The position numbers and the translations under genes are program-made. 20,935 bases of DNA from a virus. The notes under the pieces are model-generated. The model ran no database searches, was not told where the DNA came from, and was given only the letters and a program-made list of their open reading frames with translations. Shown piece by piece: positions 4,325 to 12,896 of the stretch; position 1 is the stretch's first letter, and the number at the start of each line of letters is the position of its first letter. The DNA lies in IMG/VR virus record IMGVR_UViG_3300031920_000293, positions 1 to 20,935 of that record, one strand, 5' to 3'.

Positions 4325-4354
4325 TAAAAAATAAAAATAAAAATAAAAAATAAT
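4325..4354 (+). repeat. A-rich imperfect TAAAAA tandem leader repeat
   Basis: About four imperfect copies of a TAAAAA unit lie between the scaffold stop and the ribosome site of the cement gene. Similar A-rich leaders precede the capsid gene and the gene after it. It is likely an unstructured leader, possibly aiding ribosome loading. Confidence 0.5.
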
Positions 4355-4376
4355 ACATTTACAGAAGGGAAGCATT

Positions 4377-5105
4377 ATGCAATTAGATTATAACAAGAAT
4401 ATGGCAGAGGCGTATGAGGGGATGATTGCCACGCTTGAAAACACAAATGTGAAATCAGGTGCTGCTGAAGTTGCTGTGCCTTTTGGTTTTGGTGTTGTCC
4501 AGGGAGCTGATGAAAACCAGGTGAGTCTACCTTATGTACAAATCGGTGCTATAACTTTTAGTGCAGATTTTGTTACGGGTAATGTAATCAACGGCACTGT
4601 CAATGGTGTTGCCATTGCACCGGTAACGTTTTCAGTAGATCAGGGAACTACATTAGATCATGTCATTGATGCAATTGATGCTTTATCTGGTGTATCAGCT
4701 ATCTATGATTCTGGCAGAACCATTATTGTTACATCCACCGAAAATGAAAATATTATCTTGTCATTTGTTGTCACTGCTGGGGGATCACAAGCGACAGCCA
4801 CTTATGTGTATTCAAGCAGTGAGGTTTTTAGAGGTATATCAGTGCATACACATAAAATGGCAAATCTTACAGCAGATACATCAATATACGCTGTTGGTGA
4901 GGCTGTTGGCTATTTGACAAAAGGCCCTATTTGGGTTCCCACAGTTGTTGCTGTTGTAAAAGATGAGACTGCTTATGTTGTTGTTGGTGGTGCGAATGCA
5001 GGTAAGTTTACAAATGTTTCAAGCGGTAATTTAGCTACTGGCGGTAAATTTATAAGAACGGTTGCTGCTGCTGGAATAAGTATTGTTGAAATAAATAACC
5101 CTTAA
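4377..5105 (+). CDS. Capsid structural cement / decoration protein with an inserted domain
   Basis: The 242-residue protein sits between scaffold and major capsid, the normal place of the gp24-like structural cement proteins that bind and stabilise the capsid surface. The cement core is split: residues 1-53 carry AEAYEGMIAT and VPFGFGVVQG, and residues about 150-242 carry FRGISVHTH, YAVGEAVGYLTKGPIWVP and a final TGGKFIRTVAAAGISIVEIN strand set, as in that family. Between them, about 54-148, is a Thr/Val/Ile-rich beta module starting ITFSADFVTGN and ending QATATYVY that plain cement proteins lack. No cysteine is present. The start follows AGAAGGGAAGC, about five bases before the ATG. The assignment is by pattern and position. 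Confidence 0.75.
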   Translation: MQLDYNKNMAEAYEGMIATLENTNVKSGAAEVAVPFGFGVVQGADENQVSLPYVQIGAITFSADFVTGNVINGTVNGVAIAPVTFSVDQGTTLDHVIDAIDALSGVSAIYDSGRTIIVTSTENENIILSFVVTAGGSQATATYVYSSSEVFRGISVHTHKMANLTADTSIYAVGEAVGYLTKGPIWVPTVVAVVKDETAYVVVGGANAGKFTNVSSGNLATGGKFIRTVAAAGISIVEINNP

Positions 5106-8464: not shown

Positions 8465-9562
8465 ATGAGTGAAATAAGCTCAATTATAACAGTCAATATC
8501 ACAAGACAAACGCAGGCGCTATCCCAAGCATCATTTGGGATAATTAATATTGTAGGTGAAAACTCAAGCACCGGAAATAGAATTGATTTTTATACGACAT
8601 TATCTGATGTTGCGGCTGGTCTTGACAATGGAACGGCGGATCCTGAATATTTTGCAGCAAGAGAGATTTTTTCACAATCACCGACAGTTGAAAAAATTGC
8701 AATTAGCCACAAAGAAGTCGGTGATGTAGATTATTCAGCAGCATTAGATGCAATTAAGCTGATAGACAATTCGTGGTATGGGCTTATTGTTGCATCAAGA
8801 ACAGTTTCTGAGCAACAAAATGTAGCTGATTGGACACAGGCAAATGAAAAAGTAGCTGCTTTTGCGAGTGCTGGTACTGGTACACCAGGAACTGATAATG
8901 ACTTTTTAGATGAGGCTGATGGGACTGATGTTACGTCAATCGGTTATTATATTAAAACAAATGCGCATTTTAGATCTATGGGTATCTATAGTTTAGCTGC
9001 TGCTACAAAATATGTAGATGCAGGTATGTTTGGTGTAGCATTACCAAAAACGCCAGGCACATATACAATGGCATTTAAAACTATTTCAGGGGCTACAGTT
9101 GACAAACTAACAACAACTCAATCACTTAATGTATACAATAAATATTCAAATACATATACTGAAGTAGGTGGAAAAAATCTACTGTTGTTTTCAAAAATTG
9201 GTGATGGTGATTATATTGATACTATAATTTTTGTTGATTGGTTGAAAGCAAGAATAGCAGAGAATGTATTTGGGCTGTTAGCAAGGCATGATAAAATCCC
9301 ATACTCTGATGCTGGCATATCACAGGTTAAAAGTGCAATAAATCAAATATTATCTATAGCTCAAACAAATGGTGCATTAACAGAAACAACGTTTGATCCT
9401 GATACTGATGTACAAACTGGTGGGTATGTTATTAATGTCCCATTAGCATCCTCTATTCCAGTGAATGATAAAGCAGCACGTAATTTAACGGGTATTACAT
9501 TTACAGCTTGGTATAGCGGTGCGGTGCATACAGTACAGATTAATGGTACACTCACACTATAA
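8465..9562 (+). CDS. Contractile tail sheath protein, DUF3383
   Basis: The 365-residue product matches DUF3383 (PF11863): N-terminal IITVNITRQTQALSQASFGIINIVGE, the YTTLSDVAAGL segment, DPEYFAAREIFSQSPTVEKIAISH (about 59-82), a mid-domain with VDKLTTTQSLNVYNKYSNTYTEVGGKN, and the C-terminal IFVDWLKARIAENVFGLLARHDKIPYSDAGI (about 257-287), typical of sheath cores. Its presence, with a tube gene directly behind it, defines a contractile (myovirus-type) tail. Length is at the compact end of sheath proteins, which suggests few outer decoration domains. An AAAAAGGGG-type ribosome site lies before the ATG. Confidence 0.9.
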   Translation: MSEISSIITVNITRQTQALSQASFGIINIVGENSSTGNRIDFYTTLSDVAAGLDNGTADPEYFAAREIFSQSPTVEKIAISHKEVGDVDYSAALDAIKLIDNSWYGLIVASRTVSEQQNVADWTQANEKVAAFASAGTGTPGTDNDFLDEADGTDVTSIGYYIKTNAHFRSMGIYSLAAATKYVDAGMFGVALPKTPGTYTMAFKTISGATVDKLTTTQSLNVYNKYSNTYTEVGGKNLLLFSKIGDGDYIDTIIFVDWLKARIAENVFGLLARHDKIPYSDAGISQVKSAINQILSIAQTNGALTETTFDPDTDVQTGGYVINVPLASSIPVNDKAARNLTGITFTAWYSGAVHTVQINGTLTL

Positions 9563-9637: not shown

Positions 9638-10075
9638 ATGCCTTTATCAACGTATGATCCTGAAAAAGTGGATGTAATTATTGGTGGTGCTATAATGAGT
9701 GGTTTTGCGGATGGAACATTTGTCAGCATAGAAAGAGATGAAGATACATTTACAAAGGTTACCGGGGCGGATGGTAGAACATCCAGAGCTAAAAGTGCTA
9801 ATAAATCAGGGCGTGTCACACTCACTTTACAACAGACGAGTCTATCAAATAATGTATTGTCAGGTTTTGCTTTAGAAGATGAAGTCACGTCTAAAGCAAT
9901 AAAAGCAATACTGATAAGAGACAGCTTAGGGTCTACTAATATAGCAAGTGGTGCTGGGTGGGTAGTTAAACCTGCAAGCGTTGAATTTAGTAAGGAAATA
10001 AGCAATCGTGAATGGACTATTGATTGTGCAGATTTGTTTATGGGCGTGGGTGGTAACCCTACTTTTGGGGCATAA
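9638..10075 (+). CDS. Tail tube protein, DUF3277
   Basis: This 145-residue protein matches DUF3277 (PF11681): it opens STYDPEKVDVIIGGAIMSGFADGTFVSIERDED, continues with TKVTGADGRTSRAKSANKSGRVTLTLQQTSLSNNVLSGF, and ends with SVEFSKEISNREWTIDCADLFMGVGGN. These strands build the hexameric inner tube ring. It lies directly after the sheath gene and has a strong AAAGGAG ribosome site with A-rich spacing very similar to those of the major capsid and nested scaffold genes, in line with high expression. Confidence 0.92.
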   Translation: MPLSTYDPEKVDVIIGGAIMSGFADGTFVSIERDEDTFTKVTGADGRTSRAKSANKSGRVTLTLQQTSLSNNVLSGFALEDEVTSKAIKAILIRDSLGSTNIASGAGWVVKPASVEFSKEISNREWTIDCADLFMGVGGNPTFGA

Positions 10076-10111: not shown

Positions 10112-10140
10112 ATTATGCTTATATCTAAATGGAGGATAAA

Positions 10141-10665
10141 ATGGCGTATAAAACAATTACAGAGACATATAAAGATAGTAACGGAGAAGATTCAAAAGTT
10201 ATGATCATGACTTTTGGGGCACGTGAAGGAATTAAAATCCAAGCTAAACTTTTACGTATCATGGTAAAATTTGGTCTTGGGTTTTTTTCTGTTATGGGTA
10301 GTAATAAAGATAAAAAAGAAGAGTTGAAAAAGAATAGTAAAGAGCTAAATAATATCATGGATAAGGATATTGATTTTTCTAACATTGATATTAATGAAAT
10401 AGCTGCTTTACTTATATCAGAGCTTGGTGAAGATGACGTGGTAAAAATCATCAATAGGCTATTATCTACCACCAGCGTTGACGGTAAGCCGATGAGTGAT
10501 AACAACATATTTGATGAAACTTTCGCTGGAGAATACGGGCTATTATTTGAGATATTAAAGAAAGTTTTAGAGGTAAATTTTCAAAGTTTTTTAGCCAACG
10601 GGGCTATTGGAAAAATCCTTTCATCAGTAAAACAGGCTCCGGCAATGAAAAAACTGCAAAGTTAA
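10141..10665 (+). CDS. Tail assembly chaperone, short (zero-frame) form
   Basis: The start is ATG 10141, five bases after a GGAGG site; the in-frame ATG at 10129 overlaps that site and is rejected. The 174-residue product is helical, with GAREGIKIQAKLLRIMVKFG, a charged KKEELKKNSKELNN stretch, and the C-terminal FDETFAGEYGLLFEILKKVLEVNFQSF (about 123-150). That last motif ('F...FAGE...L......VL..NF..F') is found in tail assembly chaperones lying between tube and tape measure genes. These proteins coat the tape measure and recruit tube subunits and are absent from the virion. The frame ends 23 residues beyond a T TTT TTA slippery site, so a longer form is likely made too. Confidence 0.8.
   Translation: MAYKTITETYKDSNGEDSKVMIMTFGAREGIKIQAKLLRIMVKFGLGFFSVMGSNKDKKEELKKNSKELNNIMDKDIDFSNIDINEIAALLISELGEDDVVKIINRLLSTTSVDGKPMSDNNIFDETFAGEYGLLFEILKKVLEVNFQSFLANGAIGKILSSVKQAPAMKKLQS
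10587..10641 (+). promoter_or_regulatory. Programmed -1 frameshift signal: T TTT TTA plus possible stem
   Basis: Read in the chaperone frame the sequence is AGT TTT TTA GCC, so 10587-10593 is a canonical X XXY YYZ heptamer, T TTT TTA. Five bases later CGGGGC (10599-10604) can pair with GCTCCG (10636-10641), including one G-U, to form a stem at the usual distance for a stimulator. Slipping by -1 enters a frame that is open from 10518 to 10853. Confidence 0.72.
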
Positions 10666-10856
10666 AATTATTGATTGATGGTATAGATAGAGATCTATTA
10701 TTTGAGTGGCCGCTTTGGAGATTAGTTATAATTGACAAAGTGGCAACACTCAAAGAGCTTGAAGAACACTGGGATATGGACGATTTAGTTAGAGCAAATA
10801 CTATGCTGGATGTAAAAGCACAATGCGAATCAATAATGATGGAAGAGGCTAAATAA
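10593..10856 (+). CDS. Frameshift extension of the tail assembly chaperone (long form)
   Basis: After the -1 slip the ribosome would read 87 codons beginning SQRGYWKNPF and ending SIMMEEAK, giving a long form of about 238 residues (151 zero-frame plus 87). The extension contains KLKLLIDGIDRDLLFEWPLWRLVIIDKVATLKELEEHWDMDDLVRANTMLD, a compact helical domain. A free start (TTG 10671) exists, but it has no ribosome site and would cut off the beginning of the domain. Gene order (tube, chaperone, extension, tape measure) is exactly that of lambda G/GT and similar pairs, where the extension binds tube subunits while the shared part binds the tape measure. Function follows that precedent. Confidence 0.7.
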   Translation, partial: SQRGYWKNPFISKTGSGNEKTAKLKLLIDGIDRDLLFEWPLWRLVIIDKVATLKELEEHWDMDDLVRANTMLDVKAQCESIMMEEAK

Positions 10857-11149
10857 TGACTAATTTACTGACTATTATACTAACTACTATTGTGTCAATA
10901 TCTATAACATTTTTACTGACATTCTTTTTTACAAATATCTCATCAAAAAATATAACTGAAAAAATAGCAATTAAAGAGGTAAAACAGCATGTTTTAATAA
11001 ATCATAAAGACTCAAAAACAGCAAAAGAGTACATTTTTGAGCATGAAAAAAATTGTTCAGCTACTAAAGAGTTAGCTAAATTAAAAATTGGTATGATTTT
11101 TATAGTAGGCAAACTGGACGGGGATCCACATGAGATGGGATTGATGTAA
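10856..11149 (+). CDS. Small N-terminally membrane-anchored protein before the tape measure
   Basis: This 97-residue protein starts with a one-base overlap (TAATG) with the chaperone extension. Residues about 4-27 (LLTIILTTIVSISITFLLTFFF) form one clear hydrophobic segment; the rest is polar and helical, with HEKNCSATKELAKLKIGMIFIVGKLDGDPHEMGLM at the end. The single Cys and the hydrophobic IGMIFIVG patch are notable. No known tail family is recognised. A membrane anchor is unusual in the chaperone-tape measure interval. It could be a holin- or spanin-like lysis factor, an accessory chaperone, or a factor for DNA passage; none is supported beyond the topology. Confidence 0.65.
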   Translation: MTNLLTIILTTIVSISITFLLTFFFTNISSKNITEKIAIKEVKQHVLINHKDSKTAKEYIFEHEKNCSATKELAKLKIGMIFIVGKLDGDPHEMGLM

Positions 11150-11150
11150 A

Positions 11151-12896
11151 ATGGTAGTGCGGGAATTAGTGAATTTAATTGGTTTTAAGATTGATGAAAA
11201 AGCATTCCGAAATGCTGAAGCACGTGTCAATCAGGTCAATAATAAGGTCAGTAAAATTGGGCGCACTATGTCAATTGCTTTTACTGCCCCATTTGTAGCC
11301 CTAAATGTATGGGTATTAAAGAGTTTATCAGACTTTGAACAATTAGATATTGCTTTTGCTACAATGTTAGGCAGTACTGAAAAAGGGAAAACTTTAGTAA
11401 AAGATATGCTACAGTTTGCTGCTGAAACTCCATTTGAAATTAAAGAAATTGGTCCGACTGTAAAACAATTATTAGCTATGGGTGAGAGCGGCGAAACGGT
11501 GTTGGATACACTAAAAGATTTAGGTAATGTGTCTGCTGGACTCGGTGTCCCCGTATCTAGATTAGCCTTAAATTTTGGGCAGGTAAGAAACCAAGGTAAA
11601 TTGACAGGAAGGGAATTAAGAGATTTTGCGGTTGCTGGTGTGCCTTTATTGGACACTTTAGCAAAACAATTCGATACTACTACTGGAGCAGTGACTAAAA
11701 TGGTTTCTGCTGGAACTGTTGGCTTTAATGATGTAGCAGCAGCGTTTAAAAGTATGGCAGGCGCTGGTGGTAGATTTGATAATTTAATGGAAAAACAAGC
11801 TAAAACGCTAGGTGGTAGATGGTCAAATTTTAAAGATATACTGACATTGACGGCAAGAACAATGGAAAAAATGCTACTTCCAATAGCTAAAAAATTAATT
11901 AATACATTAATTAAATTGGTTGATGTATTTAAAAATATGTCATCTACTTTAAAAGCTATAATTTTTATATTCGGAGGTTTACTTGCGGTAATAGGACCAC
12001 TATTATTAAGTTTTACCTTGATAGTTACTATGGGTAAATTTGTTGCAGGTACATTTGTTTTAATATCACAAGCAGCAACAAAAGCAAATATAAGCACTAC
12101 TATGTTTGTGGCTAAATTTGCTTTGATGGGTGTAGCAGTATTAGCTGTAATAGCAATATTGATTTTAGTTGCTGAAGATATAGCTATGTTTGTGCAAGGG
12201 CAAGATTCATTGGTAGGAAAATTTATGGCTCCGTGGTCAGAATTAGCACCAAAAATTAATGCTGCTTTAGCGCCCTTTATAATAATATTGCAAGATATGT
12301 GGAATAATATAAAAAATATACTTACTGGTATTATAGATTTTACAGTAGGTATATTTACAAATGACGTAGATAAAGCCGCTAAAGGGTTAGAGCTAATATT
12401 AGCAGATTCTCTTGATTTTTTAGCTAATATGGTGGCAATGATTTTACCCATATTGTGGACTACGTTAAAAACTATTTGGAGCCTGTTGACAACAGTAATA
12501 CCACAAATATTTACAATGCTGAATAATATGATAGCCACGGCTATAAAATCCGTGTTTAAAACTATTCTTGCGGCTTTTGATAAATTATTCAGCACTATTA
12601 AAAGTAAGCTTACAGACTCTGGTGTAGGTAAATTCTTTGGCAATATGTTTTCATCCCCAGCGTTTGGTAGTGGTGGTTTGGCAATGGCTGGTGGCGGTGG
12701 CATCCCGAGCAATATAGGCAACAGTTTAAACAGTAATAAATCAATAAATATCAGTGCTACTATACAAACATTTGTTCCTGAAGGGACTCCTCAATATCAA
12801 GCGGACTCTCTGAATGAAACATCAAGAGCAGTTGCACAAGAAGTTTTTAATGCTAATATAAACAACTTATACAATGATATACCGGAGGTTGAATAA
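11151..12896 (+). CDS. Tape measure protein
   Basis: The 581-residue protein sets tail length and is ejected ahead of DNA. It begins with a helical coiled part (1-45) and has the tape measure N-terminal domain (TIGR02675/PF20155-like, about 60-235) with FATMLGSTEKGKTLVKDMLQFAAETPFEIKEI, LAMGESGETVLDTLKDLGN and GKLTGRELRDFAVAGVPLLDTLA. Strong hydrophobic segments at about 267-305, 325-348 and 420-460 could insert into the host membrane during ejection, and a Gly-rich stretch lies at 506-520. It has no Cys or His and no Tyr before residue about 550. It is short for a tape measure; at roughly 1.5 angstrom per residue it predicts a tail near 85-90 nm (inference). It ends with a TAATG overlap to the Dit-like gene. 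Confidence 0.92.
   Translation: MVVRELVNLIGFKIDEKAFRNAEARVNQVNNKVSKIGRTMSIAFTAPFVALNVWVLKSLSDFEQLDIAFATMLGSTEKGKTLVKDMLQFAAETPFEIKEIGPTVKQLLAMGESGETVLDTLKDLGNVSAGLGVPVSRLALNFGQVRNQGKLTGRELRDFAVAGVPLLDTLAKQFDTTTGAVTKMVSAGTVGFNDVAAAFKSMAGAGGRFDNLMEKQAKTLGGRWSNFKDILTLTARTMEKMLLPIAKKLINTLIKLVDVFKNMSSTLKAIIFIFGGLLAVIGPLLLSFTLIVTMGKFVAGTFVLISQAATKANISTTMFVAKFALMGVAVLAVIAILILVAEDIAMFVQGQDSLVGKFMAPWSELAPKINAALAPFIIILQDMWNNIKNILTGIIDFTVGIFTNDVDKAAKGLELILADSLDFLANMVAMILPILWTTLKTIWSLLTTVIPQIFTMLNNMIATAIKSVFKTILAAFDKLFSTIKSKLTDSGVGKFFGNMFSSPAFGSGGLAMAGGGGIPSNIGNSLNSNKSINISATIQTFVPEGTPQYQADSLNETSRAVAQEVFNANINNLYNDIPEVE

Follow-up and report, generated by a model that had tools for sequence, protein, structure and literature searches.

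We propose, with considerable confidence, that the tail assembly chaperone (TAC) gene in the window, the whole 20,935-base stretch of virus record IMGVR_UViG_3300031920_000293 (GC 34%), carries a -1 frameshift site that adds an 87-residue extension to the chaperone, and that two stimulators, a Shine-Dalgarno (SD)-like element upstream and a stem-loop downstream, probably increase the slip. Ribosomes of the window phage most likely slip back one base near the 3'-end of the TAC gene. The initial annotation had proposed a programmed -1 frameshift of the tail chaperone into a second domain, and the proposal is well supported by the match to a TAC family, the gene order and the conservation of the site and of both frames. 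Comparison of related sequences established a conserved site, coding in the extension, the SD-like element and a covarying stem.

Gene neighbourhood of the tail chaperone

The genes lie in the order sheath, tube-like gene, TAC, -1 extension, a small ORF (10856-11149) and tape measure. The tail sheath gene (DUF3383; 8465..9562, + strand) matched PF11863 (E 4.5e-25), and 1278 phage records were found carrying the sheath, all less than 60% identical. The gene at 9638..10075 (+ strand) encodes a KPP10 Orf10-like structural protein, probably the tail tube (PF11681, E 5.5e-12; phrog_280, E 2.6e-42); we call it the tube because of its position and the usage in the available text of the Adele paper (PMC12846349). 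The zero-frame product of the TAC gene (TAC-N; 174 aa, 10141..10665, + strand) matched PF21822 (Phage_TAC_15, E 6.2e-18) and phrog_1613 (E 1.8e-16), and its start was placed at the ATG at 10141 rather than at 10129 because GGAGG sits before 10141. The tape measure gene (11151..12896, + strand) matched PF20155 (TMP_3, E 8.2e-26). The small ORF just before it encodes 97 aa with a hydrophobic N-terminus, gave no family match, and has a start that overlaps the stop of the extension (TAATG). In L009 its counterpart occupies the corresponding position (4330-4608), and several further loci carry an ORF of comparable length at this position.

Proposed slip site and overlapping frames

The slippery heptamer T TTT TTA (10587..10593, + strand), which the initial annotation had assigned to the chaperone frame, is indeed read there as the zero-frame codons AGT TTT TTA GCC, and it lies at the same place in relatives. 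Past the site the zero frame continues for 23 residues to TAA at 10663-10665, as had been noted. The -1 frame, which was thought to be open from 10518, is actually open from 10551 to 10853, with a TGA at 10548-10550 closing it, and the heptamer sits 36 nt inside this corrected stretch. The -1 reading after the site begins SQRGYWKNPF and gives 87 residues (10593..10856, + strand, including the TAA at 10854-10856), for an expected fusion (TAC-NC) of 238 aa.

We rejected the heptamer by itself as evidence, since T TTT TTN occurs in frame six times, the slip site included, within the 26 main ORFs of the window (6283 codons). The 87-codon open -1 frame survived in 2/5000 dinucleotide shuffles. The heptamer alone is not more than chance would provide, and its conservation across relatives is the decisive evidence.

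Conservation of the heptamer among relatives

To collect relatives, we aligned the tube protein encoded next to the TAC gene and searched IMG/VR with this alignment; the best 80 of 142 relatives were used. IMG/VR scans with single proteins gave few or no relatives. The first set held 83 loci including the window, nine of them without a -1 pair at first. Three of the nine (L012, L075 and L082) were read by hand, found to conform and added back, and the other six were left out: L019, whose TAC frame is broken close to the end of its contig, and five loci on contigs that stop too early. Removal of seven duplicates gave 67 loci and, with the three, 70 distinct loci, window included. The -1 pairs were retained from a search of both shifts, so the placing of the extension in the -1 frame is partly by selection, and in L026, L036, L064 and L076 the +1 frame was also open, for 45-59 codons.

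T TTT TTN was found at the homologous place in 63/70 distinct loci, window included, drawn from the best 80 of 142 relatives. It was present in 50 of the 56 representatives at <70% TAC identity (median pairwise identity 29%), compared with 12.2/50 expected from amino acids and synonymous codon use, a figure computed on the 50 carriers. The 56 representatives comprised TTTTTTC (32), TTTTTTA (8), TTTTTTG (6), TTTTTTT (4) and other sequences (6). Loss of the heptamer in close relatives, which the initial annotation had named as an outcome that would speak against the frameshift, was not seen: L008, L009, L011 and L035 keep T TTT TT[AC]. Aligning relatives, as had been suggested, revealed that the heptamer and both frames are kept even in very divergent ones. 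The nearest relative found (L002/L003/L008, one contig) is 71% identical in the extension and shares the stretch AGTTTTTTAGCCAACGG.

Seven of the 67 loci lacked T TTT TTN (L020, L026, L038, L042, L044, L053 and L063). CTT TTT or CTT TTC replaces it in L026, L038, L042 and L053, and a strong hairpin was still folded at the site in L026, L042 and L053 despite its absence. Another heptamer of the X XXY YYZ form stands at the place in L063 (3845; C CCT TTG) and in the hold-out locus L169 (2843; C CCT TTA); by their sequences, these two are natural swaps of one slippery heptamer for another.

The same two loci bear on the possibility that the slippage is transcriptional, with RNA polymerase rather than the ribosome slipping on the T run and the fusion being encoded by altered mRNAs. 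Runs of 6-7 T do occur at the site in most loci; however, L063 and L169 keep an X XXY YYZ heptamer with only three T, and an SD-like element at fixed spacing together with a stem after the site suits ribosomal stimulation. We regard transcriptional slippage as barely credible. The heptamer search required phase, and phase is therefore no independent evidence against transcriptional slippage.

We assembled a hold-out set from genome assemblies, a further IMG/VR scan and a Criblamydia plasmid, in which 82/86 loci had a -1 pair. The plasmid locus, L107, had already been inspected earlier. Many of the 86 loci lay on first-set contigs and were removed by the 70% filter; the hold-out lineages number 17, each sharing <70% identity with the first set and with the other new lineages. 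T TTT TTN was present in 14/17 of them, the exceptions being L163, L167 and L169. The six genome hits came from Chlamydiota (2), Verrucomicrobia (1), Flavobacteriaceae (1), Fermentibacteria (1) and Nanoarchaeota (1), as metagenome bins with uncertain hosts. Relatives of the tail module occur in Chlamydiota assemblies and on a plasmid (L109, L110 and the plasmid locus L107).

The extension as a coding domain

The extension was evaluated by a conserved alignment, dN/dS and an AlphaFold2 model. Between the window and L008, dN/dS was 0.23 in the extension beyond the TAC stop and 0.21 in the TAC gene upstream of the site; within the overlap it was 1.04 in the -1 frame (24 codons) and 0.49 in the zero frame (23 codons). 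The extension is, on such comparison, under purifying selection. It could be aligned in 49 of 50 loci, L084 being left out for a long insertion, and W42 and D64 were nearly invariant. The AlphaFold2 model predicts a small helical domain (mean pLDDT 80.9, pTM 0.67). No structural match of this model was convincing: Foldseek gave none at E 0.001, and the best VIA Z, 4.4, stood among unrelated rows.

Compared with PHROGs at E up to 0.1, the extensions matched phrog_4364 (23/49), phrog_37484 (16/49), phrog_3976 (12/49) and phrog_4625 (10/49), four small families without a known function; in Pfam, with E up to 1 allowed, DUF6889 was matched in 7/49, with a best E of 7e-4. We suggest that these four PHROGs, and perhaps DUF6889, represent the -1 half of a split chaperone. 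A tblastn search with the extension found nothing at E 1 in phages and one record among plasmids, from Criblamydia sequanensis. In this plasmid locus (L107 3106-3722) the site is T TTT TTT, followed by a stem.

We weighed the alternative that no fusion is made and that the extension is an independent small gene with a start of its own, an arrangement that the initial annotation had put forward as evidence against frameshifting. A stand-alone hypothetical gene is annotated at this place in KIL2, MAG1, barba and phiPsa381, and the window has a TTG at 10671. The conserved core was located by a simple pattern, and the stretch of the -1 frame leading to it from the site contains no ATG, GTG or TTG in 27/56 representatives; for these a stand-alone gene is ruled out. 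The other 29 have a start codon and leave the objection partly standing: a candidate with an anti-SD energy of -5 kcal/mol or better occurs in 8/56 representatives (best L071, -10.0), whereas 34 of the 42 candidate starts are weaker than -5 and the TTG of the window is at +0.8 kcal/mol. The shifted frame also overlaps the TAC gene, with the heptamer retained at the junction, which argues against a separate gene. We consider that arrangement very unlikely, and a fusion made by frameshifting remains our reading.

An upstream Shine-Dalgarno-like element

We propose as the 5' stimulator an internal SD-like GAGG (10570..10573, + strand; in AGAGGU), 13 nt upstream of the heptamer. The stimulators were tested in the 50 representatives, of 56, that carry T TTT TTN. 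GAGG was located exactly 13 nt before the heptamer in 37/64 sites (50 discovery and 14 hold-out), and a GAGG-type element was absent from the 24 nt upstream in 23/64. In many loci the codons shortly before the site run CTG GAG GTG AAC, giving the stretch GGAGGTGAA. A start codon in the -1 frame was found within 12 nt of the heptamer in 1/64 sites, and the SD-like element is therefore no start site for the extension.

The frameshift could be real while the SD-like element and the stem are by-products of coding or base composition, and the upstream peptide is indeed conserved around L-E-V-N. GAG and GAA are, however, synonymous in the zero frame, and the Glu codon at the element was GAG in 31/32 loci, with 12.0 (sd 2.6) expected from each locus's codon use; in the hold-out lineages it was GAG in 11/12, with 3.5 expected. 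Where Glu sits two codons nearer the site, GAA returns and prevails (GAG 1/6, 1.3 expected), which also argues against a by-product of coding. The anti-SD energy beat synonymous sampling across the representatives (combined p 1e-6, n=50), with only 10/50 single loci reaching 0.05. The AGAGGU of the window alone was not significant (fraction of the synonymous null 0.219).

A downstream stem-loop

An imperfect stem-loop (10599..10641, + strand), separated from the heptamer by a 5-nt spacer, is proposed as the 3' stimulator on the basis of its predicted fold and of covariation at the group level. Its pairs are 10599-10605/10635-10641, 10606-10609/10625-10628 and 10610-10613/10619-10622. The pairing of CGGGGC (10599-10604) with GCTCCG (10636-10641) five bases downstream of the site, pointed out in the initial annotation, is part of this fold, a predicted three-tier hairpin of -11 to -12.5 kcal/mol. 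The stem of the window gave z scores of -0.79 and -1.37 against shuffles (two stretches folded; 41/200 and 15/200 shuffles as good), p 0.025 against synonymous recoding of the -1 frame, and a rank of 0.22 when its own downstream arm was compared with the arms of other loci. In the window itself both stimulators are present but weak when taken alone, as might be expected of by-products; the stem, weak there by itself, is real at the group level as judged by comparison, and given that result the initial annotation undersold its own stem. The exact form CGGGGC/GCTCCG was rejected as the conserved stem: the nearest relative has CGGAAC, which pairs with a different downstream arm.

We folded 70-nt stretches at 43 offsets in the 50 representatives and obtained a sharp minimum at the offset 5 nt past the heptamer, with a mean z of -1.69 (se 0.23), compared with a mean z of -0.84 or higher at the remaining 42 offsets. 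The 5' arm, frequently CGGTATTGG, is predicted to pair with an arm about 20-50 nt on, as judged by eye, and L006 has a quite different 5' arm (AGCGTCTTTACG) with a matching 3' arm. A long stem was predicted in 44/50 loci and was lacking in 6/50. Among the 44 loci, 20 had the outermost pair 5-8 nt past the heptamer, 2 had it at 9 nt and 1 at 12 nt; in the remaining 21 it lay at 0-3 nt, through extra pairs close to the site. The spacer is therefore not sharply defined.

Covariation of the stem was assessed by swapping arms between loci. Native pairing averaged -12.71 kcal/mol, against -9.26 (sd 0.35) for exchanged arms, and 0/5000 permutations were as low (n=50). Control offsets were slightly positive, a point in favour of a by-product: native arms were better at six of the eight, by up to about 3 sd, and not at two, compared with about 10 sd at the site. 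Taken singly, 11/50 loci ranked no better than the middle. When the -1 frame was recoded synonymously, the energy rose from -12.71 to -9.45 (combined p 3e-14, under a null that ignores the zero-frame constraint within the overlap; 21/50 loci at 0.05 or less). The swap result recurred in the hold-out lineages (-13.89 versus -10.84, sd 0.66; 0/5000; n=14), and by these comparisons both the SD-like element and the stem of the heptamer site replicate in held-out lineages.

In many loci the 5' arm is read as R-Y-W by the -1 frame and as G-I-G by the zero frame, as selection on the peptides alone could produce; yet the arms covary between lineages and beat synonymous recoding, which argues against a by-product. 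We hold it rather unlikely that the two elements are by-products, and favour their action as stimulators.

Proposed mechanism

In the proposed mechanism, the gene at 10141-10665 would encode the major tail assembly chaperone. The tRNAs on UUU and UUA at U UUU UUA (10587-10593) would slip back one base to UUU UUU, and a fraction of ribosomes would then continue in the -1 frame, adding the 87-residue helical domain to give a minor 238-aa chaperone. The GAGG 13 nt upstream would anneal to the 16S rRNA tail of an elongating ribosome, which the downstream stem-loop, 5 nt on in the window, would hinder; each would raise the slip. By analogy with lambda gpG/gpGT, the common part may bind the tape measure protein and the added domain may recruit tail tube subunits. 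The slip and its efficiency, what each stimulator does and what role each product has are our inferences from the sequence comparison.

Relation to known frameshift systems

The frameshift is ordinary in kind, since by comparison it is of the lambda G/GT type and has been described, T-rich site included, for related phages. As in lambda, the gene lies between those for the tail tube and the tape measure, with a -1 slip near the 3'-end and a minor fusion to a C-terminal domain; the heptamer differs, being G GGA AAG in lambda and T TTT TTA in the window. The window thus has the position and family of a TAC, an in-frame slippery sequence and a conserved overlapping C-terminal domain. Frameshifting in tail chaperones is among the commonest recoding events and is often thought to be stimulator-free. 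In E. coli dnaX, an SD-like element lies about 10 nt upstream of the site. The SD-like element and downstream stem-loop of the dnaX type were found for the group of the window, and the A AAA AAG heptamer was not; dnaX also differs in its unrelated genes and in an efficiency of about 50%. On the sequence comparison, the cassette of the window would work like the dnaX type and is not a member of it.

The E. coli dnaX and IS cassettes share with the group the upstream SD-like element, the heptamer and the downstream stem-loop, as far as they are described in the accessible parts of two reports (PMC3711429, PMC5009743). According to the available portion of the latter, a 2016 review, SD stimulators act in dnaX and in an estimated 56% of IS elements (PMC5009743). 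The same portion indicates that stimulators seem not to be involved in the frameshifting of certain tailed phages, in contrast to the group of the window, which appears to have them (PMC5009743). In the accessible part of PMC3711429, frameshifting at two HK97-like tail chaperone sites is given as 6% and 7%.

The initial annotation singled out the T-rich heptamer in this phage type as worth confirming; it is not new: U-run sites had already been described for P2, SPP1, Vandenendeviridae and Andersonviridae. In the available text of the Adele paper (PMC12846349), a -1 frameshift with an invariant GTTTTT is reported for 56 alleles from 159 Vandenendeviridae, with the -1 frame open in every allele examined, and the motif is common to 231 Andersonviridae too. 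Compared by domain families and gene order, these phages share with the window the sheath family and a -1 shift at a T-rich site, and differ in the motif, GTTTTT in the accessible account (PMC12846349). The same available text makes no mention of Shine-Dalgarno, hairpin, stem-loop, pseudoknot or secondary structure (PMC12846349). The portions available for P2 and SPP1 give TTTTTTG for the P2 E/E+E' site, with hairpins sought in P2-like phages and not found (PMC3091744), and UUUUUUC for SPP1 17.5/17.5* (PMC6316719); both, so far as these sources go, have U-run heptamers as in the group of the window, and different tail modules.

Within the literature covered, made up mostly of papers outside subscription and some of it available only in part, we found no phage tail chaperone described with both stimulators. 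By comparison, then, the dnaX-like two-stimulator cassette in a tail chaperone appears new as far as found. It is likely that this cassette is carried by a widespread group of mostly uncultured phages with contractile tails, one copy lying on a Chlamydiota plasmid, and it could allow the ratio of their two chaperones to lie well above the lambda level. The lineage would supply naturally occurring variants, some having the SD-like element and some lacking it, with several heptamers, for measuring what sets the chaperone ratio. If the proposal is true, the dependence of tail assembly on that ratio becomes testable via silent mutations.

Named cultured phages

We analysed 17 of 19 fetched regions from named phages, leaving out L097 and L101. 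T TTT TTN was present at the TAC end in 11/17: three Ounavirinae, three Vequintavirinae, a Chaseviridae phage, Shewanella phage 1/40, RHph_I36 and two others. GAGG at 13 nt was found in 3/11 of these (L096, L103 and L105), and the cassette is therefore not a general feature of the wider family. Four regions (Pakpunavirus, Flaumdravirus, Otagovirus and Saclayvirus) had GGTTTTT with C or T as the next base, and Barbavirus had GGGAAAG in the overlap. In Listeria phage PSU-VKH-LP041 (L100 5505-6036) the extension lies in the +1 frame, with 58 open codons past the stop, and seems to be reached by a +1 rather than a -1 shift. Slippage was annotated in 2/19 fetched records, as 'ribosomal slippage' in Michonne and as a joined chaperone in Shewanella phage 1/40.
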